NCBI GenBank assembly: GCA_021740105.1
Contig: JAIPAM010000001.1
Coordinates: forward strand, 260,239 to 324,238
Direction of reading: 5' to 3'
DNA: 64,000 nucleotides
From: Flavobacterium sp.
Lineage (GTDB): Bacteria; Bacteroidota; Bacteroidia; Flavobacteriales; Flavobacteriaceae
The position numbers and the translations under genes were made by a program. The notes beneath the pieces were generated by a model, which saw nothing but the letters and a program-made list of their open reading frames with translations, was not told the origin of the DNA and did no database searches. Below, piece after piece: positions 20,580 to 31,306 of the stretch. The stretch's first letter is position 1. Every line of letters starts with the position of its first letter.

Positions 20580-20641
20580 GAAAAATATTGTAAGAGTTGG
20601 AATAGGGTTCAATTTGGTATGTTATTTTGTAAAAATTAGGT

Positions 20642-20690
20642 GCAAACTATTTAAACAAAAAAGACCTCACATTAGAGTGAAGTCTTTCAA
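20642..20690 (-). terminator. Terminator of the lysine-rich gene, near-copy of the one at 28990-29036
   Basis: On the minus strand the stem AAGACTTCAC / GTGAGGTCTT with a T run forms a standard terminator 36 nt or so after the lysine-rich gene. The stem, the T run and the flank GCAAACTA-TTAAACAAAAAA recur almost unchanged at 28990-29036, inside the element next to the intact tRNA. Confidence 0.8.
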
Positions 20691-20725
20691 TAATTTATAG
20701 CAATACTAAAATTTGCTAGACTTTT

Positions 20726-21271: not shown

Positions 21272-21424
21272 GACAGCTTGTTGTTTTAATTCAATGTTAA
21301 TTAATTGTTATGTAATTGTTAGGCAAAGGTAAACTAATTGACGGTATTCCAATGTTAAGTTTTCAATTGAGGTTAAAATTTAACATATAAAATGAGGTTT
21401 CAAAACTTCCGTTTAAAGCAAACA

Positions 21425-21498
21425 AAAAAGTTGAGCACGGGGTTTTGCTCAACTTTTTAATAAGAAACCCTTGTAAATACTGATACTTACAAGGGTTT
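21425..21498 (-). terminator. Two hairpins downstream of the left tRNA copy
   Basis: 21425-21458 holds AAAAAGTTGAGC / GCTCAACTTTTT (12 bp, works in either direction). 21465-21498 holds AAACCCTTGTAA / TTACAAGGGTTT (12 bp, 10-nt loop). On the minus strand they follow the tRNA-Met 3' end and are probably the original transcription stop of that tRNA before the element inserted. Confidence 0.75.
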
Positions 21499-21500
21499 TG

Positions 21501-21577
21501 TGGTGGTCCCACTTGGAATCGAACCAAGCACCTACTGATTATGAGTCAGTTGCTCTAACCGAATGAGCTATAGGAAC
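21501..21577 (-). pseudogene. tRNA-Met(CAT) left copy, probable non-functional att-site duplicate
   Basis: Full-length tRNA sequence with anticodon CAT (complement at 21541-21543) and an encoded 3' CCA (complement at 21501-21503). It differs from the right copy in one place: acceptor-stem base 2 is T instead of G, giving a T-C mismatch with the 3' strand. Upstream sequence is element DNA with no clear promoter, while the two terminators downstream look native. I read it as the displaced copy left by integration. It could still be a working gene if a promoter exists in the element. Confidence 0.75.
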
Positions 21578-22332
21578 GACAGGATGTTTAAAAGTCTTTC
21601 ACCGATTGTACAAACTATGTGCAAACCAAAACCTGGTTTTAAAATAGGTTTGTTTTACTTGATCCAAATGTATTACATTTTTCAAAACAAAAAAAGAGAA
21701 AAAAGAAAGTGCTACAAATTGAGGTAATGACTTACGAGAATGGAGAGAAGAATGATCGACTGAAGTAAGGAATGCACTCTAAATTTGCCACCTTTTTTCT
21801 GTTATGCAAAAACGTTCTTGTTAGTTAAACACCCAGCTGTACCGCAGAAAAATGGAATTTATGGAATTTTTCGAGGAACAAGATGCGGTGTTGCGGCAAA
21901 TGACTAGCAGCCTAAGGATGGGAACAAAACGTAGCTTTAGCGAAGTGATGTGGAATACTTAGAGCGTTTCGTTGGGGAATGAATAAAAATCAGCGTAGCG
22001 TTCCTTATTTGAGTGCAAAACGATAGTGGAGCAAATCCCCAACTGCTAGGCATAGGAGCAACCGCTGAAAAATCATAGAGCGAGAGACAACAATACTGCT
22101 GAATGCAGAGCAACGAAATGAAGCTGTATGTTGGATTAAGTAGCTCTAACGAACGTAATGAGTGCGTGTGTGAAGATTGGGAGCGTAGAAAGCAAAAAAG
22201 GGCTGTTATTTTTCATAACTGCCCTTAGTTTTGGTTTCAAGTGGTCTTTGGAACGGAGCTTGTTAAAGCGACTGGAAAAGCCCAACGTAACAAAGCAAAC
22301 GATTGGAGTGAGACCGCTTGATTGCCCTTAAA
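21578..22332. other. Gene-free segment at the element's left end with RNA-like pairing
   Basis: About 750 bp with no convincing reading frame. It looks visibly richer in G and C than its neighbours. Complementary segments: GTTGGGGA (21971-21978) with TCCCCAAC (22036-22043); TCAAGTGGTCT (22237-22247) with AGACCGCTTGA (22311-22321, one G-T); and a hairpin at 22199-22225 (AGGGCTGTTAT / ATAACTGCCCT, one T-T mismatch) that may terminate transcription. It could be a non-coding RNA, a replication or transfer site, or decayed sequence. Integrase-type repeat caaactatgtgcaaac is at 21611-21626. Confidence 0.5.
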
Positions 22333-22902
22333 TTATAATATTAAAATTAAAACCAACCACACTCCAGAGGTAATACCAAAAGTTTTCCAAACTTTTTTGT
22401 TTTTTATTTTATGAGCCTCATCAACATATGCTTTATTGTAATCTGCATTTTTCATTAAGCTAGGATTTGGATATTTAAGATTTTCATCATTTGGATCTGC
22501 TGAAGCACATAGAGCAGCTGGTAAAACTCCAATAAGTGGACTTGTTAATATTGTTGTTACAGCAGTCCAAGCAGCTCCAGAATTTTGTCCTCTGTAAAAT
22601 GATTTAGCATCTGCTTTTCCCTTTGATAACATGTCATCATCATTTTTTTTATCAGAAACTGTTGTTTCACTAAAAACATCTTTACTACCATTTTTATATC
22701 TAATTAATAATACATCAGATTTTAATATGCTAAAAATTGGACCTTCTAAATTATCCGTTCTTTTATATTTTATTTCTGAATTGGTAACTTCCAAAATTTT
22801 TGCATTAATATCCTCACCTGTTTTCTTGGTAATCATATCTTGTGAAAAGCTGTTGGTTAATGTGCAGATTGTAATTAATGTGTAAAAAATTATTTTTTTC
22901 AT
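22333..22902 (-). CDS. Exported/membrane hypothetical protein, 189 aa
   Basis: Signal peptide MKKIIFYTLITICTLTNSFSQ, then a small beta-rich domain (DMITKKTGEDINAKILEVTNSEIKYKR.., LLIRYKNGSKDVFSE) of a kind common in Bacteroidota envelope proteins. Two hydrophobic segments follow: about residues 108-130 (AAWTAVTTILTSPLIGVLPAALCA) and the extreme C-terminus (FGITSGVWLVLILIL). No catalytic residues are evident. Role unknown. It is the leftmost coding gene of the element, with no close neighbour on its strand. Confidence 0.75.
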   Translation of the reverse strand: MKKIIFYTLITICTLTNSFSQDMITKKTGEDINAKILEVTNSEIKYKRTDNLEGPIFSILKSDVLLIRYKNGSKDVFSETTVSDKKNDDDMLSKGKADAKSFYRGQNSGAAWTAVTTILTSPLIGVLPAALCASADPNDENLKYPNPSLMKNADYNKAYVDEAHKIKNKKVWKTFGITSGVWLVLILIL

Positions 22903-23141
22903 GTTGTTGTTTTTTGTTTCCTACTCGTTTGGTTTTTCGGTTTCACCTCGTTTTTAATGGTTTCTGTTCTCCATGGTTTTAATAAATTGAATTCTATTAT
23001 TTCTTTTATTTAATAATTTTAAATGTTGGTTCTCTAGTGTGTAGCATTTCATCAAGTTATTTATAATTGATTTCATTTATTATTATTTTTCAAAAGTAAT
23101 AAAAAATCAGTTACATACAACTTATTGAATACAATCACATA

Positions 23142-23155
23142 CATCTAATTAGATG
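23142..23155. promoter_or_regulatory. Perfect 14-bp palindrome before the XRE gene
   Basis: CATCTAATTAGATG is a perfect inverted repeat ending 16 nt before the XRE-family start codon. Its position suits an autoregulatory operator. No matching copy was noticed before the nuclease operon, which has a different palindrome. Confidence 0.45.
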
Positions 23156-23171
23156 AAAGTAATTTTCCATT

Positions 23172-23411
23172 ATGGAAAAAAGAGTTCGTAAATCACCACT
23201 TACCCCAGATATCATTAATCTTGGGAAGCAAATAGAAGAGATAATAAAACTAAAAGGCTTGAAAACTAGAGAGGTAGCTCATGATGCAGACCTTGATGTT
23301 GAGAACTTAAGAAAATACATTAAAGGCAAGCAAGAGATGAAAGTTTCAACCATGCTTAAAATCACTAAATCTTTAGGGGTGTCAGTAGCTGAGTTATTTA
23401 AATTTCTATAA
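23172..23411 (+). CDS. Small XRE-family (Cro/CI-type) DNA-binding protein
   Basis: 79 residues, almost all of it a helix-turn-helix domain: IINLGKQIEEIIKLKGLKTREVAHDADLDVENLRKYIKGKQEMKVSTMLKITKSLGVSVAELFKFL, with the recognition helix near DVENLRKYIKG. Such one-domain proteins usually repress promoters of mobile elements or of defence and toxin genes. It is the only recognisable regulator in the element. A perfect palindrome lies just upstream. Whether it controls the nuclease operon at 24.2-26.9 kb is inference from location. Confidence 0.88.
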   Translation: MEKRVRKSPLTPDIINLGKQIEEIIKLKGLKTREVAHDADLDVENLRKYIKGKQEMKVSTMLKITKSLGVSVAELFKFL

Positions 23412-23423
23412 TTGAATAACATT

Positions 23424-23486
23424 GGGGGGTACCTCCAACTTAAAATTTGTCACCAGGGGTTTTGGTGGGGAGGATGCTTTTTATTG
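23424..23486. repeat. Degenerate direct repeat, copy 1 (partner 24121-24180)
   Basis: About 60 nt that align imperfectly with 24121-24180: both begin with a G run and CCAAC, share TGGTGG, AGGATGCTT and TTAT. The pair brackets the secreted orphan gene at 23501-23992. Confidence 0.45.
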
Positions 23487-23500
23487 ATACACAGGTAAAA

Positions 23501-23992
23501 TTAAAACTTCTCTGGGGCAAAAGAACCTCCATAAAGCTTTATTAAGTTTGTAAAGGCGTTATCCATTCGATTTGTCATATCGTCTTCTAAAACTGATTTT
23601 TCAAGCAATATTTCTACATGATTTGTCATCTCATTATTTACCTTGATTGAATTAGTCTTTGTTTTTAGATAGAGCCAAACATTGAATACTTTTGATTCAA
23701 ATCGAATTTTATACAAATCTTTAATTGGGACATAATAAGTAATATCTGATGTACTATCTAATTTTGTAGCTCCTGTTCCTGTCCCACTACCCATTCCAGT
23801 TACTGTTCTACAGTTACTATTTATAATCATGTTTGATTCATCAAATGTGATTGTGTAGTTATGAAACACTTTTACATCATCTGAATAGGAATAATAGTTG
23901 ATCTTCTCACTGATCCATTCTTGGGTTTCTTCTTTAGTTTGAGCGTAACAAGTATTTATAAAAATTAGAAATACAATTAATAGATTTTTCAT
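23501..23992 (-). CDS. Exported hypothetical protein, 163 aa
   Basis: Signal peptide MKNLLIVFLIFINTCYAQ and a mature domain of about 145 residues with alternating strands (VKVFHNYTITFDESNMII, ISYYVPIKDLYKIRFE-like pattern, FNVWLYLKTKTNSIKVNN). No family recognised. It is flanked by the imperfect direct repeats at 23424-23486 and 24121-24180, which may mean it arrived as a small cassette. It does not overlap the nuclease operon (244-nt gap). Confidence 0.7.
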   Translation of the reverse strand: MKNLLIVFLIFINTCYAQTKEETQEWISEKINYYSYSDDVKVFHNYTITFDESNMIINSNCRTVTGMGSGTGTGATKLDSTSDITYYVPIKDLYKIRFESKVFNVWLYLKTKTNSIKVNNEMTNHVEILLEKSVLEDDMTNRMDNAFTNLIKLYGGSFAPEKF

Positions 23993-24120
23993 GATTTTTT
24001 GTTTGATGATGGAACAGACTAAGCAATAACGTTACTATCTTGATTCTAAAGCATTAACTAGCAGTAGACAATACAAATTTAATAAAAAATTCTAAACGGT
24101 TGAATATTAGATGCAAAATA

Positions 24121-24180
24121 GGGGGATGTGCCCAACATGAAAATCAATACTGGGTTTCTGGTGGTAAGGATGCTTCTTAT
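24121..24180. repeat. Degenerate direct repeat, copy 2 (partner 23424-23486)
   Basis: Counterpart of the copy at 23424-23486; roughly two thirds of positions agree by eye. It sits between the start of the secreted orphan gene and the 3' end of the zinc-finger nuclease gene. Confidence 0.45.
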
Positions 24181-24236
24181 GTGGGCATATGATAATGAAT
24201 TACTTGGCGAACTTGATTTTGTTACTATCTGCTTTT

Positions 24237-25490
24237 CTAATTCAATAATTTATGCTCTTCTATCAAACGCAATATGTATAGCATCAAGTTATTTACATGG
24301 ATTATTTTATAGCTTACATTTCCAGAAAAAGGTTCTACTATATCGAAATGATACTTCTTATTAAAATACTCATCGTTATCAATAACATAAATCATTTTAA
24401 TACCATGTGACAAACATTTCTTTAGTTTAATATCATCTCTTTTTTTTACTTCTTCAAATGCTTTATTTGCCCATTCAACTCCTTTTCCCGCAAAATCAAC
24501 TGGTTTAAAGTGCTGAGCACCTTGACATTCAATCGCAATATCATATTCAGGAACATAGAAATCTAATGATTGTTTACCCAGCCATTTAAACTTTTTTTGT
24601 CTTACATAAACAACCTTTAGTTCTTCTAAAACAAACGCAAGTTTTCTTTCCAATTTAGATTCATTGCATATGGGACATCCACTTTTTTTGGATAAATGAT
24701 TGTTTGGACTCACTTCAAAGTCTCCATGAGTTATACACTTGAGTATAACATTTGTTTGGCCATTAATATATTCTACTTTACTATATTCAAATTTATCTCC
24801 AAATAACTCTTTTGACTTAAGTATGAAATTCTCTTTACCCATTGATCTATCTGATGCCATTTGGTCAAAATTACACTTAGGACAACCATGCCCTTGTAAG
24901 TGTTGATTTGCTGGTTGTGGGAATACTCCATGAATTGGACATTCTATTTCTACTTTGTCTGTTGAATTATAACATTTGCTATTTACATAGCTATACTTGT
25001 CACCATGTACTTTAATGGCGTTTTCTATAAAATATTCAGTATTGTATTTACTCAGCTTTGATTTAGTTATTTCTCTTCCGCATTTTCTACATCCACATTT
25101 AAGCCTGATATGATTTTGAGGTATTTGAGAAAACTCACCATGGATTGGACAAATAATGGTTATCTTAGTGTAAGTGTTCTTCCATTCTACTTTGGAATAA
25201 TCATAGTTATCTAGATGGATTTGTTTGGCTTGTTCAAGAAATGTTTCTAATGTAGTTAATCGATATTTACCACGAAAATATTTTGCTGCACATTTTGGGC
25301 ATCCATTTCCAGTTAAGTGACCTGTAGGTGCTTGATTAAACTCCCTATGTTCAGGGCATATTATGCAAACTTTAGTATGTGCACCACTATATTCTACCCT
25401 CGAATAATCATACTTATCTCCATGCTTTTTCTTAGCTTTTTCTATGAATTCTGAAGTACGACTTAAAAGATTATTACTCATCTTAACCAT
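24237..25490 (-). CDS. Putative nuclease: four treble-clef-like zinc repeats plus Vsr-like PD-(D/E)XK domain
   Basis: 417 residues, soluble. Residues 15-275 are four repeats of about 60-70 residues, each of the form F(I/L)xxAKxxHGDKYDYSxVxY...CPxHGxF...HL..GCPKC; paired Cys are at 45/64/67, 114/134/137, 184/203/206 and 252/272/275. The C-terminal domain (280-375) has the Vsr/restriction-like signature SLDFYVPEYDIAIECQGAQH with Asp310, Glu321, Gln323, His327, then a RDDIKLKKC helix. Repeats of this type are seen with nuclease domains in phage and mobile proteins. DNA recognition by the repeats and cleavage by the C-terminus are inferred. Starts 6 nt after the HIT gene; Met4 is an alternative start. 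Confidence 0.82.
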   Translation of the reverse strand: MVKMSNNLLSRTSEFIEKAKKKHGDKYDYSRVEYSGAHTKVCIICPEHREFNQAPTGHLTGNGCPKCAAKYFRGKYRLTTLETFLEQAKQIHLDNYDYSKVEWKNTYTKITIICPIHGEFSQIPQNHIRLKCGCRKCGREITKSKLSKYNTEYFIENAIKVHGDKYSYVNSKCYNSTDKVEIECPIHGVFPQPANQHLQGHGCPKCNFDQMASDRSMGKENFILKSKELFGDKFEYSKVEYINGQTNVILKCITHGDFEVSPNNHLSKKSGCPICNESKLERKLAFVLEELKVVYVRQKKFKWLGKQSLDFYVPEYDIAIECQGAQHFKPVDFAGKGVEWANKAFEEVKKRDDIKLKKCLSHGIKMIYVIDNDEYFNKKYHFDIVEPFSGNVSYKIIHVNNLMLYILRLIEEHKLLN

Positions 25491-25496
25491 TTAACT

Positions 25497-25862
25497 TTAA
25501 TAATACCCTTTACCCTCAACACAATGTCTTATACCTCCTCTAGGGTTTTCCATATCACCTTTGTACCTTGGTATAATGTGACAATGGAAGTGCATAACAG
25601 TTTGCCCAGCATCTTCACCACAGTTCATTCCAATGTTGTACCCAGAAGGAGAATGTTGCTTTTCAACCACTTCTTTACCGCATTTAATAGCTATATTAAG
25701 GTCGTTTTTCTCTTTTTCATCCAGTCCAAAGTAATCATGTTTTAAGGCCTTAGAAATGATTAATAGATGTCCTGGAGAAACAGGAAACCTATCATAGATT
25801 GCAAAGAAATAGTCTGTTTCAAAAACATAGTGCTGTGGTTCTATTTGTTGAAAGACACTCAT
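25497..25862 (-). CDS. HIT family protein (nucleotide hydrolase/transferase fold)
   Basis: 121 residues. The histidine-triad active site HFHCHII is at residues 91-97 (His91, His93, His95), followed by PRYKGD; the upstream core VSPGHLLIISKALKHDYFGLDE and the NIGMNCGEDAGQTVMH strand are typical of the branch related to Hint/Ap4A hydrolases. Such enzymes hydrolyse or transfer nucleoside monophosphates from dinucleotides or AMP-conjugates. Here it is locked between two nuclease-like genes: start overlaps the HNH stop by 4 nt (ATGA) and the next gene starts 6 nt after its stop. That suggests a role in the same system, not housekeeping. Confidence 0.92.
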   Translation of the reverse strand: MSVFQQIEPQHYVFETDYFFAIYDRFPVSPGHLLIISKALKHDYFGLDEKEKNDLNIAIKCGKEVVEKQHSPSGYNIGMNCGEDAGQTVMHFHCHIIPRYKGDMENPRGGIRHCVEGKGYY

Positions 25863-26863
25863 CTGTTATTCAGTTTGGTTATTAATCTTTTAAAGAAGGG
25901 ATCTGTTTCTCTGTTGTAATTAGGAGAGTTCTCCCAGTAATTGTTCTTAAGGACAATCTTTGCGTTCTCATAATGATACAGCATTGATTTATTTCTTTTA
26001 ATTGGGTTGTCTCCTAGAGCATCAGCTATTTTCTTTTTCCAGGGATGATTACTCCCCATGATGTTCTCATTACGTGCTACAAGCTTCTCAAAGTAGTGCT
26101 TTCCTATTAATGCATCATTTTTGTTCATGTTGCAGATGCTATGACTCAACACAAGGTTCCATATTTCATCATGTTGGATGAATTGCCTTGGTAAAACATG
26201 ATCCACATGAACATCTTTATCCCCGATCCTTTCACCACAATAGAAACACGTGTTTCCCTGATATCCTTGTAAGAATGGAATGTTGCCTGTTATATTAGTC
26301 CTGGTGTAACTATTCTCCAGGTAAACATCTCTAACATCATTAGACAGCTTAAAATCACCGTGTGCTAAAGAGAAAGCCCCTTCTAATAAACTCCATCTAG
26401 CATCAAGCTCATCTGTGAGCTCTTGTTTTGATGTTTCATTGATTTGGAAGGTAGCATCATGCAAATAGAGCTTTTTTCCAAAATCAAAGTGATAGAACTT
26501 CTCCCCAACAATATCTTTATCTGTTCCTATGGTCTGAAACCTTGGCACAACATCATTAAAAGCATCAGTACCCACTGAATAAATTGCTCCCTCATAATCA
26601 ATCAATCCTTTGTTTAGAGAATCAATAATCCTCTCCATTTTGGTTTTCCTGGATGGATTGCTTTGTTGTGGGTTGTAGTTTGTTTTTAGCCTCTCCATGT
26701 AGGTTTCCAAATAGATTTTAGATAGATGATCCCATTCTACAGCCTCTTTATCTTGAGAAGCTAATTCAAGGATGGTTTTGCCTAATGCAATCTTGTAAGT
26801 GGCTTGATTTAAGCCATAAAGTACTATTCCTTTCCAATAGTCTACATCTTCAAATTTATCCAT
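25859..26863 (-). CDS. HNH endonuclease-domain protein
   Basis: 334 residues. The HNH core occupies about residues 204-250: CFYCG (Cys206, Cys209), DKDVHVDHVLPRQF (Asp221-His222), Asn236 in EIWNLVL, and SICNMNKND (Cys244, Asn245, Lys248). This is a complete HNH zinc-type site. The first 200 residues form a separate, mostly helical domain with no family I can name; it begins VDYWKGIVLYGLNQATYK and may sense or bind a partner. First gene of the HNH-HIT-zinc-repeat-nuclease operon, behind a TATGTTTG promoter element and a palindrome. Confidence 0.88.
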   Translation of the reverse strand: MDKFEDVDYWKGIVLYGLNQATYKIALGKTILELASQDKEAVEWDHLSKIYLETYMERLKTNYNPQQSNPSRKTKMERIIDSLNKGLIDYEGAIYSVGTDAFNDVVPRFQTIGTDKDIVGEKFYHFDFGKKLYLHDATFQINETSKQELTDELDARWSLLEGAFSLAHGDFKLSNDVRDVYLENSYTRTNITGNIPFLQGYQGNTCFYCGERIGDKDVHVDHVLPRQFIQHDEIWNLVLSHSICNMNKNDALIGKHYFEKLVARNENIMGSNHPWKKKIADALGDNPIKRNKSMLYHYENAKIVLKNNYWENSPNYNRETDPFFKRLITKLNNR

Positions 26864-26895
26864 TAGCTATCCTGTATTGATGTGTTAGATTGATA

Positions 26896-26903
26896 CAAAC
26901 ATA
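26896..26903 (-). promoter_or_regulatory. -7 element of the nuclease operon
   Basis: TATGTTTG on the minus strand, 32 nt before the HNH start codon. No TTTG is found at the expected -33 position; a palindrome lies there instead. Confidence 0.5.
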
Positions 26904-26912
26904 AGAATATTT

Positions 26913-26929
26913 TGTCTTATAATAAGACA
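26913..26929. promoter_or_regulatory. Palindromic putative operator of the nuclease operon
   Basis: TGTCTTAT-A-ATAAGACA: 8-bp arms around one central base, with no mismatch. It begins 9 bp upstream of the -7 element, where it would block polymerase binding, and so is well placed for a repressor. Confidence 0.6.
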
Positions 26930-27284
26930 GCTCTTGTTTCTGTTTGAAGGCGGGAGTACTCCAGGGTAATTATTTGAGACAGGGTTGTTAGTGGGAGTGA
27001 GCAAGCTATTAACATACAGGTCAAAATAACTTTACAGGTTAGAAATTTTGGAAAATAATATTTTTGGTTAAGTAGAAAAATCAATCCATTTTTAGCTACG
27101 AATCGCTATATATATTATTTTATGTTAAGAAAAACAAGTTTTTGCTTTAGAAGGGTGAATTAGCGGGTGATGTGCATGCAGCTCATCATTTGTGTATAAA
27201 TATTTTTTGAAGAATCATTTGTCCCATTTGTCCCATTTTTGTTAAAAACATCAACATTTTGTTTATAAAATGAGGGTTAAAAAA

Positions 27285-27315
27285 TTGTGTATTTAAAAAG
27301 GCAGTATTACCTTTG
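27285..27315 (+). promoter_or_regulatory. Promoter of the 109-aa orphan gene
   Basis: TTG (27285-27287) and TACCTTTG (27308-27315) with 20 nt between them, ending 31 nt before the start codon. Confidence 0.6.
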
Positions 27316-27346
27316 GGCTTCCCATAACATATAGATATACAACAAG

Positions 27347-27676
27347 ATGAGTAGAAGATTAGATGCTTTCTGTATCACAAGTAGGCTTAGGCTTCAAGAC
27401 AGCATTAAACTAGATAACGAATACATAACTATTCACAAGCTAATGGATACTGACCCTGTTAAACTATGGAACTTAATTCATTCTAAAGGCAGTAATATTC
27501 ATTTAGTAAGTACCGATCATTACAAACTGAAGCAACTAATAACAAAAGTAGCACCTGAACTTATAGCTATTAATGATGTGAAGCGTGAGCTTCGCAAGAG
27601 TAAGATGAAACTTTCCAATGCAATCTCATCTGGTACTATTGGAACTGAAAAGAGCTCCTACAAAAGACTTAATTAA
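27347..27676 (+). CDS. Orphan 109-aa protein of the element
   Basis: No family recognised. Basic, probably helical and soluble, with a C-terminal Lys/Arg-rich stretch (NDVKRELRKSKMKLSNAI). No signal peptide or membrane segment. A consensus promoter lies just upstream, which supports the gene being real. It converges on the integrase gene with 67 nt between the two ends. By position and charge it could be an excisionase-like or DNA-binding accessory protein, but no helix-turn-helix is convincing; this is a guess. Confidence 0.6.
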   Translation: MSRRLDAFCITSRLRLQDSIKLDNEYITIHKLMDTDPVKLWNLIHSKGSNIHLVSTDHYKLKQLITKVAPELIAINDVKRELRKSKMKLSNAISSGTIGTEKSSYKRLN

Positions 27677-27743
27677 TCTAGTTCTTCTGTAGAAGCATAA
27701 ATCATGTTCATCCTTTTTCAATTCATCCTTTACAGATAGACAG

Positions 27744-28943
27744 TTACATAATTACATGTTGATGCATTTCATCGATCACCTTAGTTTCAAAAGTGTCTAG
27801 ATAGATGTTAGTTATCTTATTTCCATGCTGATGACCAAGTGCTTCTGCAATTAGTTCATTTGAATATCCCATGCGTTTAGCAATAGTAGCAAATGAATGT
27901 CTACTTGAATAGGTTGTTACAGAAGAACCTAGACCAACCTCTGCAGATAACCGGTTCAAATATTTATTGGTTGTTTTGATACATTGCTGGATGATTCTTT
28001 TAGCTCTTACATTGTCTTCTGTAACACCAAATGGAATAATAGGCAGTAGGTAATCACTTCCAGGAGCATGCATCTGATTGATTATAGATTCTGCCTCAGG
28101 AAACAGCTTTACACTATAGTTTTGATGTGTTTTTCTTCGCTTGTATTCAATTCTACCATCGATGATATTTGAATGCTTTAAATAGGCTAAATCGGTGAAA
28201 GAAATACCTCTCAAAAAGAAGCTCAACATGAAGTAATTTAAAGACCTCCAACAGGTTGAATTCTTCTCTACATGAATTTGTAAGAGCTTGGCAATATCAT
28301 CCTTCAAAATGGCTCTTTTTGCTGTCTTTTCACTCTTTATACTGATGTCATGGAAGGGATAAAAAGACCTATCAACCACCTTCATCTTAATAGCCTTATT
28401 GTAGATAGCTCGAATGGATCTAAAATAGTTAGACACACTGTTTATTTTGAGTCCTGAGGTGGTTAAATGATGGCTAAATTGGTCTAAGAGCTTGTAATTA
28501 ACCTCTTCAAAAGTAACATCCTTCCCACAATAGGTAATAAGCCTGTTAACTGCTGTTCGATAGACTATTGCATTACCAACTCTGTTAGCTTCCAACATTT
28601 GTTGAATGACTTTATCTGCAAAAATTTGGAATGTTTCAGGAGTTTCAACTTGTGGCTTCCCAGAGAGCATTGCTTTGAGCTTATCAATAGAGAATTCATC
28701 ATCTAATGAAAGAACAGCTTGTTCGATTTTAAAGAAGTGCTTAGAGAGTTTGATGTTTAGAAGCTTCGCATTTGGATATTCTTTTACCACTTGCCCTTTT
28801 CTTTCATCCCAATAATGTTGTTGAAGTGCTACCCCTGAATTAATGGTGTAGACTTTCTTAAAATCAATGATTCTAAAGATGATGTTGAATGTTCCATCTG
28901 ATTTTGCTCTACGAAGGTCTAAGAGCGTTTTAATGTTTGCCAT
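27744..28943 (-). CDS. Tyrosine recombinase (site-specific integrase)
   Basis: 399 residues from the ATG at 28941-28943; the frame also extends to a TTG at 28982, less likely because it would lie inside the terminal repeats. N-terminal arm-binding region (MANIKTLLDLRRAKSDGT), core-binding helices at about 105-195, catalytic domain from 210. Catalytic residues: Arg245 (FFLRGIS), Lys271 (KRRKTHQ), Arg348 in SSRHSF (the first His of HxxR is Tyr345), His371 (GHQHG) and nucleophile Tyr381 (NIYLDTF). Typical Bacteroidota element integrase. Its 5' end is about 100 bp from the intact tRNA, as expected for the enzyme that recombines that site. Confidence 0.93.
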   Translation of the reverse strand: MANIKTLLDLRRAKSDGTFNIIFRIIDFKKVYTINSGVALQQHYWDERKGQVVKEYPNAKLLNIKLSKHFFKIEQAVLSLDDEFSIDKLKAMLSGKPQVETPETFQIFADKVIQQMLEANRVGNAIVYRTAVNRLITYCGKDVTFEEVNYKLLDQFSHHLTTSGLKINSVSNYFRSIRAIYNKAIKMKVVDRSFYPFHDISIKSEKTAKRAILKDDIAKLLQIHVEKNSTCWRSLNYFMLSFFLRGISFTDLAYLKHSNIIDGRIEYKRRKTHQNYSVKLFPEAESIINQMHAPGSDYLLPIIPFGVTEDNVRAKRIIQQCIKTTNKYLNRLSAEVGLGSSVTTYSSRHSFATIAKRMGYSNELIAEALGHQHGNKITNIYLDTFETKVIDEMHQHVIM

Positions 28944-28989
28944 AAAGATTGATTTATGGTCTTGGAAAGCAATTTTGTGCAAACTATGT

Positions 28990-29036
28990 GCAAACTAATT
29001 AAACAAAAAAGACCTCACATTACTGTGAAGTCTTTT
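28990..29036 (-). terminator. Element-borne terminator after the intact tRNA-Met
   Basis: On the minus strand AAGACTTCAC / GTGAGGTCTT (10 bp, one G-T) with a T run follows the tRNA 3' end by about 9 nt. It nearly duplicates 20642-20690. Confidence 0.8.
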
Positions 29037-29044
29037 GATTATTG

Positions 29045-29118
29045 TGGTCCCACTTGGAATCGAACCAAGCACCTACTGATTATGAGTCAGTTGCTCTAAC
29101 CGAATGAGCTATAGGACC
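29045..29118 (-). tRNA. tRNA-Met (anticodon CAT), intact copy
   Basis: 74 nt on the minus strand. Acceptor stem GGTCCTA / TGGGACC pairs throughout (one T-G). Anticodon loop ACTCATAAT with CAT complement at 29082-29084; T-arm GGTTCGATTCC. The loop context is that of elongator Met; a lysidine-modified Ile tRNA is less likely. No CCA is encoded (the discriminator A is followed by CAA). The 5' flank has a promoter of its own, so this is the expressed copy, rebuilt at its 3' end by the inserted element. Confidence 0.92.
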
Positions 29119-29130
29119 TTTAACGAGGTG

Positions 29131-29162
29131 CAATATTACTACTATTTTTGATTCTCTGCAAA
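29131..29162 (-). promoter_or_regulatory. Promoter of the intact tRNA-Met
   Basis: TTTG (29159-29162) and TAATATTG (29131-29138) on the minus strand, 20 nt apart, 12 nt before the tRNA 5' end. Confidence 0.55.
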
Positions 29163-29218
29163 TCTTTTTGAAAGGGATTCCGGATTCCTTTTCGAATAAA
29201 AATAAACCTTAAAGCCAT

Positions 29219-29620
29219 TTACTTCATTTCCTGACACAGCTCGATCAAAACGCCATTGGTGGTTTTTGGATGAAGAAAAGCCACTAATTTATTGTCGGCC
29301 CCTCTCTTGGGAACTTCGTTTAAAACCACAAAACCCTCCGCTTTTAATCGCGCGATTTCCGAAACAATATCTTCTACATCAAAAGCGATGTGGTGAATTC
29401 CCTCGCCTTTTTTTTCCAGGAATTTAGCAATTGGACTCTCCGGATTCTTCGCTTCCAATAATTCAATTTTATTAGGGCCATTCATAAAAAAGGAAGTTTT
29501 AACTCCTTCGCTTTCTACCAATTCCGATTTATAGGCTGGGGCACCAAATAGTTTTTCGAAAACCAAATTCGAAACTTCAAGGCTGTTTACCGCAATTCCA
29601 ATGTGTTCAATTTTTCTCAT
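29219..29620 (-). CDS. mce: Methylmalonyl-CoA epimerase
   Basis: 133 residues from ATG 29618-29620 (MRKIEHIGIAVNSLE); an upstream TTG in frame is less likely. Two betaalphabetabetabeta modules of the glyoxalase/vicinal-oxygen-chelate fold, with metal ligands in HIGIAV (His5), HHIAFDV near residue 78 and a late Glu in LIELCQ. Interconverts the 2R and 2S forms of methylmalonyl-CoA in propionate/odd-chain metabolism. The mutase genes are not in the window. Divergent from rbfA; a TATCTTTG -7 element lies at 29643-29650. Confidence 0.92.
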   Translation of the reverse strand: MRKIEHIGIAVNSLEVSNLVFEKLFGAPAYKSELVESEGVKTSFFMNGPNKIELLEAKNPESPIAKFLEKKGEGIHHIAFDVEDIVSEIARLKAEGFVVLNEVPKRGADNKLVAFLHPKTTNGVLIELCQEMK

Positions 29621-29642
29621 TTTTAGCTGCAATTAGTTGGGA

Positions 29643-29650
29643 CAAAGATA
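29643..29650 (-). promoter_or_regulatory. Probable -7 element for mce
   Basis: TATCTTTG on the minus strand, 22 nt before the mce start. No -33 match found. Confidence 0.4.
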
Positions 29651-29700
29651 AAAAACTTTATTGCTTTGCACCTTTGAAACGCTAGAACTCAAAAAAATTG

Positions 29701-29708
29701 TATTTTTG
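29701..29708 (+). promoter_or_regulatory. -7 element abutting the rbfA start codon
   Basis: TATTTTTG ends 4 nt before the ATG at 29713. Transcription starting about 5-7 nt downstream would begin at or next to the start codon. Confidence 0.45.
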
Positions 29709-29712
29709 CACC

Positions 29713-30105
29713 ATGGAAACAAATAGACAGAAAAAAATAGGTGGCGTAATCCAAAACGATTTGGTGGATATTTTACAAGGTGAAGTTCGTAAAAATGGAA
29801 TTTCCAATTTGATTATTTCCGTGTCAAAAGTGGTGGTAACTTCTGATTTATCGGTTGCAACGGTGCATTTAAGTATTTTCCCTCAAGAAAAAGCCGCAGA
29901 AACTTTGGTCGCTATTAAATCCAATACCAAATTAATAAAACACGATTTATCTCAACGCGTACGACTTCAATTGAGAAAAGTACCTAACCTAACTTTCTTC
30001 ATTGACGATTCCCTAGACTATATCGAGAAGATTGATAATGCCTTAGCGGCAAAAGAAAATCCAATCGAAAACCGCGATCTTTTAGAAAAACGAAGAGCAA
30101 CCTAA
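29713..30105 (+). CDS. rbfA: Ribosome-binding factor A
   Basis: 130 residues from ATG at 29713 (METNRQKKIGGVIQNDLVDIL). KH-like fold with the family pattern ISVSKVVVTSDLSVATVHLSIFP and HDLSQRVRLQLRKVPNLTFFIDDSLDY, including the PxLxFxxDxS signature. Acts in 30S subunit maturation, binding 16S rRNA. A TTG fifteen bases upstream is in frame but overlaps the -7 element. The stop codon is followed one base later by the TTG start of a permease gene. Confidence 0.94.
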   Translation: METNRQKKIGGVIQNDLVDILQGEVRKNGISNLIISVSKVVVTSDLSVATVHLSIFPQEKAAETLVAIKSNTKLIKHDLSQRVRLQLRKVPNLTFFIDDSLDYIEKIDNALAAKENPIENRDLLEKRRAT

Positions 30106-30106
30106 A

Positions 30107-31306
30107 TTGAACTTCCCTTATTACATAGCCAAGCGCTACCTGAAAAGTGCCAATAAAAATAATGCAATCAACATTATTAATGGCATTGCTTCGCTTGGAA
30201 TTATTGTAAGCTCTATGGTTTTATTTGTAGTATTATCTATTTTTAGTGGGTTGGTGAATTTCAGTTTGTCGTTCAGTAATGACTTCGACCCCGATTTAAA
30301 AATCAACAGCACTTTAGGTAAATCCTATACTATTTCACCAACTCAAGAGCAAAAAATAAAAGCTATTGAAGGCGTAACTTCTTACAGTAAGATAGTCGAA
30401 GAACGCGCCTTATTTATGTTTGATGGCAAAGAGCAATTTTCTTATTTGAAAGGGGTTGATTCTACGTTTACCAAAGTGAGCAACGTTCAAAAAAGCTTGT
30501 TCAACGGACAATGGCTAAGTCCAAATACTTCGCAAGTAGTCGTGGGGTATGGAATTTCTCAAAAGTTATCGCTTGGCATATTCGATTTCAATAATCCGTT
30601 TGAGGTATTTGCTCCAAAACCAGGTAAAGGAACGATAGAAAATCCGGACGATGCATTTGTAAAAATTGGTTTAATTCCTGTTGGTATTTATGCCGTAAGC
30701 GAAGATTTAGATTCTAAATATGTATTTGCAGATATTGATGTAGCAAGAGAATTACTGGGATTTCAATCCAACCAAATCACCACTCTGGAATTAAAATTAA
30801 AACCCAATGCCGACGAAAATAAAGTAAAAGAGCAACTACAAAATATATTCGATAATAAAATCACCATTAAAAACAGAGCGCAACTCAATGACGCTTTGTA
30901 CAAAATGCTCAATACCGAAAATACCGCCATTTATTTGTTGTTTACCCTTGTGATTATCCTAACCCTATTTACCCTAGCTGGAGCTATTATCATGATGATT
31001 TTAGACAAACGAGGGAATTTAAAAACGCTTTATAATTTAGGAACAGAAGTGAAAGATTTGAGAAAAATATTCTTGCTTCAAGGGACTTTATTAAGTGTTT
31101 TGGGTGGGCTTTTTGGACTTTCAATTGGGGTGGTGTTGGTGTTAATCCAGCAGCAATTTGAAGTCATCATGATTACGCCTTCCTTGGCTTATCCGGTGGA
31201 TTTCCTATTTAAAAATGTAGTAATTGTTTTAGGAACCATTATCTCGTTGGGCTTTATCGCTTCGTTGATTGCGAGTAACCGCGTGAGCAAGAAGTTATTG
31301 GAATAG
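30107..31306 (+). CDS. FtsX-like ABC transporter permease (LolC/LolE type)
   Basis: 399 residues. Start TTG at 30107, one base after the rbfA stop; the protein begins MNFPYYIAKRYLKSANKNNAINIINGIA, the usual start of this family in Bacteroidota, so TTG seems right. One membrane segment near 25-50, a large periplasmic MacB-like domain (about 55-265), and three more segments (272-297, 320-345, 360-385), the FtsX layout. Probably part of lipoprotein release from the inner membrane; the partner ATPase is not adjacent. Confidence 0.87.
   Translation: MNFPYYIAKRYLKSANKNNAINIINGIASLGIIVSSMVLFVVLSIFSGLVNFSLSFSNDFDPDLKINSTLGKSYTISPTQEQKIKAIEGVTSYSKIVEERALFMFDGKEQFSYLKGVDSTFTKVSNVQKSLFNGQWLSPNTSQVVVGYGISQKLSLGIFDFNNPFEVFAPKPGKGTIENPDDAFVKIGLIPVGIYAVSEDLDSKYVFADIDVARELLGFQSNQITTLELKLKPNADENKVKEQLQNIFDNKITIKNRAQLNDALYKMLNTENTAIYLLFTLVIILTLFTLAGAIIMMILDKRGNLKTLYNLGTEVKDLRKIFLLQGTLLSVLGGLFGLSIGVVLVLIQQQFEVIMITPSLAYPVDFLFKNVVIVLGTIISLGFIASLIASNRVSKKLLE

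Follow-up and report, generated by a model that had tools for sequence, protein, structure and literature searches.

Among restriction enzymes that depend on phosphorothioate (PT) in DNA, those that join an N-terminal sulfur-binding domain (SBD) to a C-terminal HNH nuclease domain (EcoWI, SprMcrA, ScoMcrA and Hga) come closest to the locus described here; the passages of the literature that treat them give sulfur-pocket motifs of the types H-R/K and Y-P (PMC6224610, PMC7461809) and dnd clusters nearby in <3.6% of cases (PMC7461809). HNH nucleases are also described in Dnd loci, in passages that make no mention of HIT proteins (PMC10853773), and the nearest literature is the PADLOC paper, according to which 2.4% of Thoeris systems include a HIT gene, ThsC (PMC8565338). 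Here, we analyze a 64,000-nucleotide stretch of DNA from Flavobacterium sp., called the window throughout (assembly GCA_021740105.1, 2.19 Mb in 15 contigs; contig JAIPAM010000001.1, forward-strand positions 260,239 to 324,238), where a mobile element inserted at a tRNA-Met gene carries an HNH nuclease gene coupled to a HIT hydrolase gene. The conserved unit is this HNH and HIT pair, two genes and not three, and the partner of the HNH nuclease is either a HIT protein, an S-adenosylmethionine (SAM) methyltransferase, or a fusion of methyltransferase and HIT. The best reading of the sequences and structure models is a type-IV-like restriction pair whose partner would handle thio-nucleotides.

Like the SBD-HNH enzymes, the HNH protein of the window has a C-terminal HNH domain and, judging from middling scores, what may be a similarly folded N-terminal domain, its length is near that of their short members, and its own genome has no DndC. 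Unlike them, it has no SBD detectable by sequence, which is why we do not file it as an SBD-HNH member, and it differs also by having TYK for PHK, an HNH_4 (Cas9-like) domain vs. the HNH_2 domain of our SBD-HNH profile set (A9), and a HIT or methyltransferase partner. Thoeris type II shares with our locus a HIT protein (ThsC) as an accessory gene of a defense system, while Septu and retron HNH proteins (PtuB) share the HNH domain, with weak profile matches (5e-6 to 1e-2). A Pfam scan of seven element proteins found no SIR2/Macro-type ThsA or TIR-type ThsB, no PtuA ATPase or other ATPase domain, and no cognate DNA methyltransferase, and Thoeris, Septu and type II restriction-modification, respectively, were therefore rejected; the partner of the HIT protein here is an HNH nuclease, unlike in Thoeris, and the HNH protein has another N-terminal domain and a HIT partner, unlike in Septu. 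Dnd-associated nucleases and the TIGR04096 family are approached by a sister HNH family found in dnd-like sulfur loci on some plasmids and by a TIGR04096-like fused methyltransferase domain, but no sulfur genes accompany the pair within the element of the window. As the preliminary description of this DNA had stated, no named system was matched in the libraries and literature searched, and among the literature matches listed, with most subscription papers and bioRxiv outside the scope, no published description of an HNH-HIT pair was recognized.

The HNH nuclease and its HIT or methyltransferase partner

The HNH gene (25859-26863, minus strand) encodes a protein of 334 aa with an HNH_4 match of 1.4e-9 and an AlphaFold model with a pLDDT of 88.6 (a first model, built from 20 sequences, was poor, with a pLDDT of 64, and was not used). 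Its catalytic and zinc region (26102-26254, minus strand; Pfam HNH_4 at residues 206-250) is of the Cas9-like DNA-nuclease type and intact, with C206, C209, D221, H222, N236, H241, C244, and N245 invariant in an alignment of 89 rows (A8), and the T22-Y23-K24 motif (26792-26800, minus strand), also invariant in 89/89 rows, lies in the SBD-like N-terminal domain (residues 1-165; 26369-26863, minus strand). The HIT gene (25497-25862, minus strand) shares 4 nt with the HNH gene and is separated by 6 nt from the third gene, which encodes a zinc-repeat protein; its product of 121 aa has both the PF01230 match (2.6e-21) and the HxHxHxx triad of the HIT family, here HFHCH (H91, H93, H95; 25578-25592, minus strand), which is found in 17/17 aligned rows. 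The preliminary description was right about the positions, spacing and domains of the three open reading frames (ORFs) and about the intact HFHCHII motif.

The nearest named relatives of the HNH protein are in Flavobacterium and other Flavobacteriaceae, and the class of the genome is taken from this to be Bacteroidia. The HNH protein matches phrog_338 over its full length (2.8e-57) and has no match at 1e-5 in 50,697 phage records, and a viral HNH relative used as the query found seven phage records, with every match confined to the HNH domain or its vicinity and spanning no more than 26% of the query. In a whole-protein profile comparison, the HNH families are linked solely via the HNH part. 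One viral contig (L029, 7989-8996) has an HNH relative (44%) without a HIT gene beside it, directly preceding likely holin and lysin genes, as read by eye.

When a profile of 20 HNH sequences (A1) was used on named genomes, 27 HNH loci were found in Bacteroidota, Gamma- and Alphaproteobacteria, and Planctomycetota, and the ORF maps place a partner gene next to the HNH gene in 26 of them. The partner is a HIT gene in 13 (L002-L007, L009, where another gene intervenes, L019, L020, L021, L024, L026, and L028), while another 13 have a class I SAM methyltransferase gene (L008, L010-L018, L022, L023, and L027); L025 has neither. The HNH frames of L025 and L022 are broken, and both ORFs of L027 are truncated. 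None of the 27 loci has HIT and methyltransferase as separate genes within 700 nt of HNH. The partner is always on the same strand as the HNH gene, downstream in 18 loci and upstream in 8, and, by simple ORF starts, 11/26 pairs overlap by 1-8 nt and 5/26 are 0-2 nt apart. Three more distant HNH ORFs (L030, L031, L032), from a search of 100 relatives, also adjoin HIT. In the 27 loci, methyltransferases were recognized by eye on the basis of ORF lists and BLAST clusters; those beside HNH relatives that were scanned with Pfam (L008, L011, L012, and L033) belong to the Methyltransf_23/25, TehB or TIGR04096-like types and not to DNA methylase families, with the free-standing ones being of the general Methyltransf_23/25, TehB-like type. 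The L015 methyltransferase had no match in 296 genomes of the phylum of the window, an empty answer that is uninformative.

Several other genes were seen around these loci. In Hymenobacter busanensis, a 163-aa protein without a family match lies between HNH and HIT (L009, 9051-9542). A gene judged MazG-like by eye (cluster c3) is found within a few kb of HNH in L005, L007, and L015; in two of the three, it adjoins a gene for a 562-aa protein without an NCBIfam match. A PADLOC scan of the flanks (100 proteins of at least 120 aa, at most two on each side of HNH in the 27 loci, core clusters excluded) matched restriction enzymes of types IV and I, Zorya ZorB, an RmuC-type DRT protein, PD-T4-1, PD-T4-2, and others, nearly all one match each among the 25 of 42 families listed, and with no control set.

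The association was also evident from the HIT side. The HIT protein of the window was searched against 395 genomes drawn evenly from its class at a threshold of 1e-25; 24 genomes matched, its own included, and all 24 matches outside its own genome lie immediately next to an HNH-type ORF or are fused with one. Fourteen of these HIT proteins stand alone; in eight others (L054, L055, L057, and L063-L067), a methyltransferase domain precedes HIT at the N-terminus, and in two (L056 and L072), HIT and HNH form a single protein. Neighbors were assigned by eye on the basis of ORF lists and BLAST clusters; in L052, L058, and L067, the HNH frame is broken into two ORFs. These HNH partners fall by eye into at least five groups and are 13-63% identical to the top sequence of their alignment; HNH_4 matches 20 of the 24 at E 0.01, and the others are L056 (PF01844), L057 (HNH_2), L053 (HNH_4 at E 0.019), and L052, whose broken gene was judged by eye to be homologous to that of L053. 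A methyltransferase-HIT fusion used as the query recovered itself (L041, the same as L033), two further fusions (L042 and L043), and a truncated methyltransferase part (L044), each adjoining an HNH ORF.

Ordinary HIT genes keep other company. In the control, built on 28 such genes of the same class, 49 of 54 neighbors were scanned, of which 27 matched greA and 11 ruvC, and no HNH family was among the 25 of 73 families listed, 22 of which match one protein each, any unlisted family matching at most one protein. L107 and L121 were excluded from this control as members of the pair's HIT subfamily. A HIT gene is present in 45/45 class genomes and 14/14 control genomes searched, and the Flavobacterium genome itself has a second, ordinary HIT gene. 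On plasmids, the HNH gene adjoins HIT in four (L135, L136, L138, and L140) of seven HIT-bearing records, that of L135 being unannotated and found by sequence match, and no HNH was seen beside HIT in L137, L139, and L144.

Phosphorothioate DNA and the rival explanations

Four lines of evidence led us to infer PT recognition: the predicted fold, one conserved lysine, an operon with an SBD-HNH gene, and dnd-type genes beside a sister family. The N-terminal domain of the HNH protein resembles, in its predicted fold and with middling scores, the SBDs of PT-dependent restriction enzymes, and K24 aligns with the lysine of the SBD "PHK" motif. One methyltransferase-HIT fusion gene overlaps a true SBD-HNH gene. 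When the methyltransferase domain of such fusions was scanned, its residues 7-95 matched TIGR04096, "DNA phosphorothioation-associated putative methyltransferase" (1.9e-17, well short of the cut-off of the model). The sister HNH family is adjoined by dnd-type sulfur genes on some plasmids. DndC is absent in 23/24 HIT-bearing genomes, the Flavobacterium genome included, as a PT-dependent cutter would require, although DndC is equally rare elsewhere (2/49, one of them below the cut-off), which makes this distribution uninformative. Taken together, it is quite possible, if short of probable, that the HNH protein of the window works like a PT-dependent restriction enzyme.

As a side observation on the sister family, a DUF4007 gene, a DndA-like cysteine desulfurase gene, and the sister HNH gene recur together on Synechocystis pSYSM (L134/L149) and on a Hymenobacter yonginensis plasmid (L145), in a set that also includes a protein weakly matching a BrxC-like P-loop, and this looks like a little described sulfur-linked defense locus. 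Eight of the 15 plasmid records of the sister family were opened, and no annotated HIT gene was found in them, one of the eight having only hypothetical proteins in an incomplete gene table.

In the proposed mechanism, the SBD-like domain would read the PT mark in incoming DNA and the HNH domain would cut it, and this cutting, with the degradation of PT-DNA, would yield thio-nucleotides. A dedicated HIT could remove them, because human HINT1 turns dGMPS into dGMP and H2S, as described in a passage of PMC8775712. The HIT step would be P-S hydrolysis with release of H2S, and the methyltransferase step would be an S-methylation capping sulfide or thiophosphate. HIT proteins and methyltransferases have unrelated folds, and a sulfur-handling partner step would explain how two unrelated enzymes come to swap or fuse; their swap beside one HNH family and their fusion beside another suggest one task on related substrates. 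We tentatively propose an HNH restriction nuclease for PT-marked DNA together with a HIT protein hydrolyzing the resulting thio-nucleotides. That these genes make up a new two-enzyme restriction system, in which a PT-DNA nuclease is genetically tied to a sulfur clean-up enzyme (HIT or methyltransferase), is a more doubtful proposition.

Several results weigh against this proposal. Y23 of the window protein stands where SBDs have histidine, the pocket proline has no clear equivalent, and a profile of 20 relatives found no SBD chain in the PDB at E 0.1. Among 30 SBD-HNH loci opened after a search of the class sample of 395 genomes with the A9 profile (25/30 with a PHK/PHR-type motif near the N-terminus, by pattern), HIT was found only at L057, and 29/30 have neither a HIT nor a methyltransferase partner; a HIT partner is therefore no general need of PT restriction. 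The sister HNH family lies close to sulfur writers, a setting ill-suited to a PT-dependent cutter unless it has another role there. In viruses, a scan with the HIT alignment, covering the best 80 of 167 loci, gave five HNH-HIT fusions (L202, L208, L210, L211, and L212; 308-343 aa), which we regard as phage or prophage single-chain versions of the pair, and nothing by HNH profiles at the other 75 loci, 8 of which were read by eye and have free-standing HIT genes. With these counts set beside the cellular ones, the tight HNH-HIT link holds for the sampled cellular genomes and not for viruses. Free-standing HIT genes of the same subfamily were seen in viral contigs of up to 413 kb (L186, L188-L192, and L197), where their role could be in the nucleotide metabolism of the phage itself or in counteracting the bacterial pair.

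Other explanations begin from the chemistry of the partner. HIT domains hydrolyze AMP conjugates, and an aprataxin-like HIT might strip AMP from 5'-adenylated ends, so that the breaks made by a nuclease for unmodified or otherwise marked DNA escape sealing by a phage ligase (or host ends are rescued), with the methyltransferase blocking ends otherwise. The HNH-HIT fusions, uniting both activities in one protein, and the Cas9-like HNH domain would suit such a scheme, which we nevertheless hold to be unlikely, as no aprataxin is among the 44 solved structural relatives listed for the HIT protein (HIT, Hint, Fhit, and Ap4A phosphorylase), and the dnd-type neighbors and the swap with SBD-HNH would be left unexplained. 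The partner may instead protect or regulate, as an antidote or off-switch, with HIT or the methyltransferase removing or adding a group; the target would be the nuclease, host DNA, or a nucleotide signal activating HNH. The part of the PADLOC paper on Thoeris type II proposes such a role for its HIT protein, ThsC (PMC8565338), the PADLOC model of which is matched by the HIT protein of the window (2.7e-8), and the tight gene overlaps and the placement of the partner on either side of HNH would fit as well; however, no signal synthase was seen recurring beside the pair in the 27-locus maps, by eye and BLAST clusters, and the eight sister-family plasmid loci without an annotated HIT, together with the L029 HNH without an adjoining one, mean that HIT is not an obligatory antidote of every such HNH. 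We give the antidote explanation a low probability, and the sulfur-DNA reading has more support than the suggestion of the preliminary description that HIT makes or destroys a nucleotide signal.

A further view, that these are homing-type nucleases of mobile elements or phages, selfish cargo with no defense role, draws on the phage homing type of the zinc-repeat protein, on the full-length phrog_338 match of the HNH protein, and on its viral relative L029 without HIT; yet homing needs no conserved partner, while a partner is present in 26/27 loci whose flanks hold restriction and other defense genes (in the scan without a control), and we find it improbable. Least credible is a three-gene defense operon, as first described from the gene spacing in the window, to which the zinc-repeat ORF of viral contig L186 could be added. 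The HNH-HIT part of that set held (13/27 HNH loci and 24/24 HIT loci), but the zinc-repeat gene was found in 0/27 HNH loci (fetched stretches) and in 1/149 other genomes of the relatives sample, where 0/4 fetched ORFs match HNH, and the three-gene operon was rejected on these counts as very unlikely.

The mobile element and its zinc-repeat passenger

The zinc-repeat nuclease is a phage-type passenger outside the conserved pair. Its gene (24237-25490, minus strand) encodes a protein of 417 aa with zinc repeats and a PD-(D/E)xK-like part, of phage and homing type (phrog_559, 7.7e-72), with Pfam matches to DUF723 and DUF4379 and a CapR match below its cut-off. Four stretches of the protein match phrog_4605. 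The "Vsr-like" label given to the C-terminal nuclease in the preliminary description depends on a motif, as this part has no Pfam match and a weak PADLOC PD-(D/E)xK match (E 0.016). Relatives occur in 757 phage records, 70 of which match it across 80% or more of its length. In L186 (2950-3348, 3756-4796), a zinc-repeat ORF of 346 aa, by eye of the same type, lies one gene from HIT.

The 7.5-kb mobile element inserted at tRNA-Met, which the preliminary description had recognized as tRNA-integrated, is real. It has a tyrosine integrase (27744-28982, minus strand; Phage_int_SAM_5, 3.2e-20, and Phage_integrase), and tRNA-Met copies, 97% identical over 78 nt, lie at both of its ends, one (CAT; 29044-29118, minus strand) being the insertion site and the second (21501-21577, minus strand) marking the opposite end. 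The closest of the 29 relatives' loci compared (L074 of genome G035) is an empty site with a single tRNA, where the match to 21398-21575 of the window joins directly onto matches to 29044-29625 and 29642-31053; because the outer flanks meet at this one tRNA, the insert spans about 21578-29043. It also encodes a small HTH (Cro/antitoxin-like) protein of 79 aa (23172-23411, plus strand; read by eye), and two short proteins and a 109-aa ORF in it have no Pfam match above the cut-off. An 82-nt direct repeat (83%) has one copy outside the element (20614-20695) and one inside (28962-29043), the latter immediately 3' of the tRNA. Together with a third, partial copy (21606-21629), the repeat raises the possibility of an earlier, or a nested, insertion at this site.

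Possible meaning for HIT proteins and sulfur-DNA restriction

HIT proteins are very widespread nucleotide enzymes, and, to our knowledge, a biological role has been assigned to few of those in bacteria. A subfamily tied to an HNH-type ORF in 24/24 cellular loci, and swapping or fusing with methyltransferases, points to a common substrate. If the sulfur-DNA reading is true, it would bear on the fate of PT-DNA after cutting, which the literature passages on PT restriction do not address, and it would mean that sulfur-DNA restriction also detoxifies its own sulfur products.
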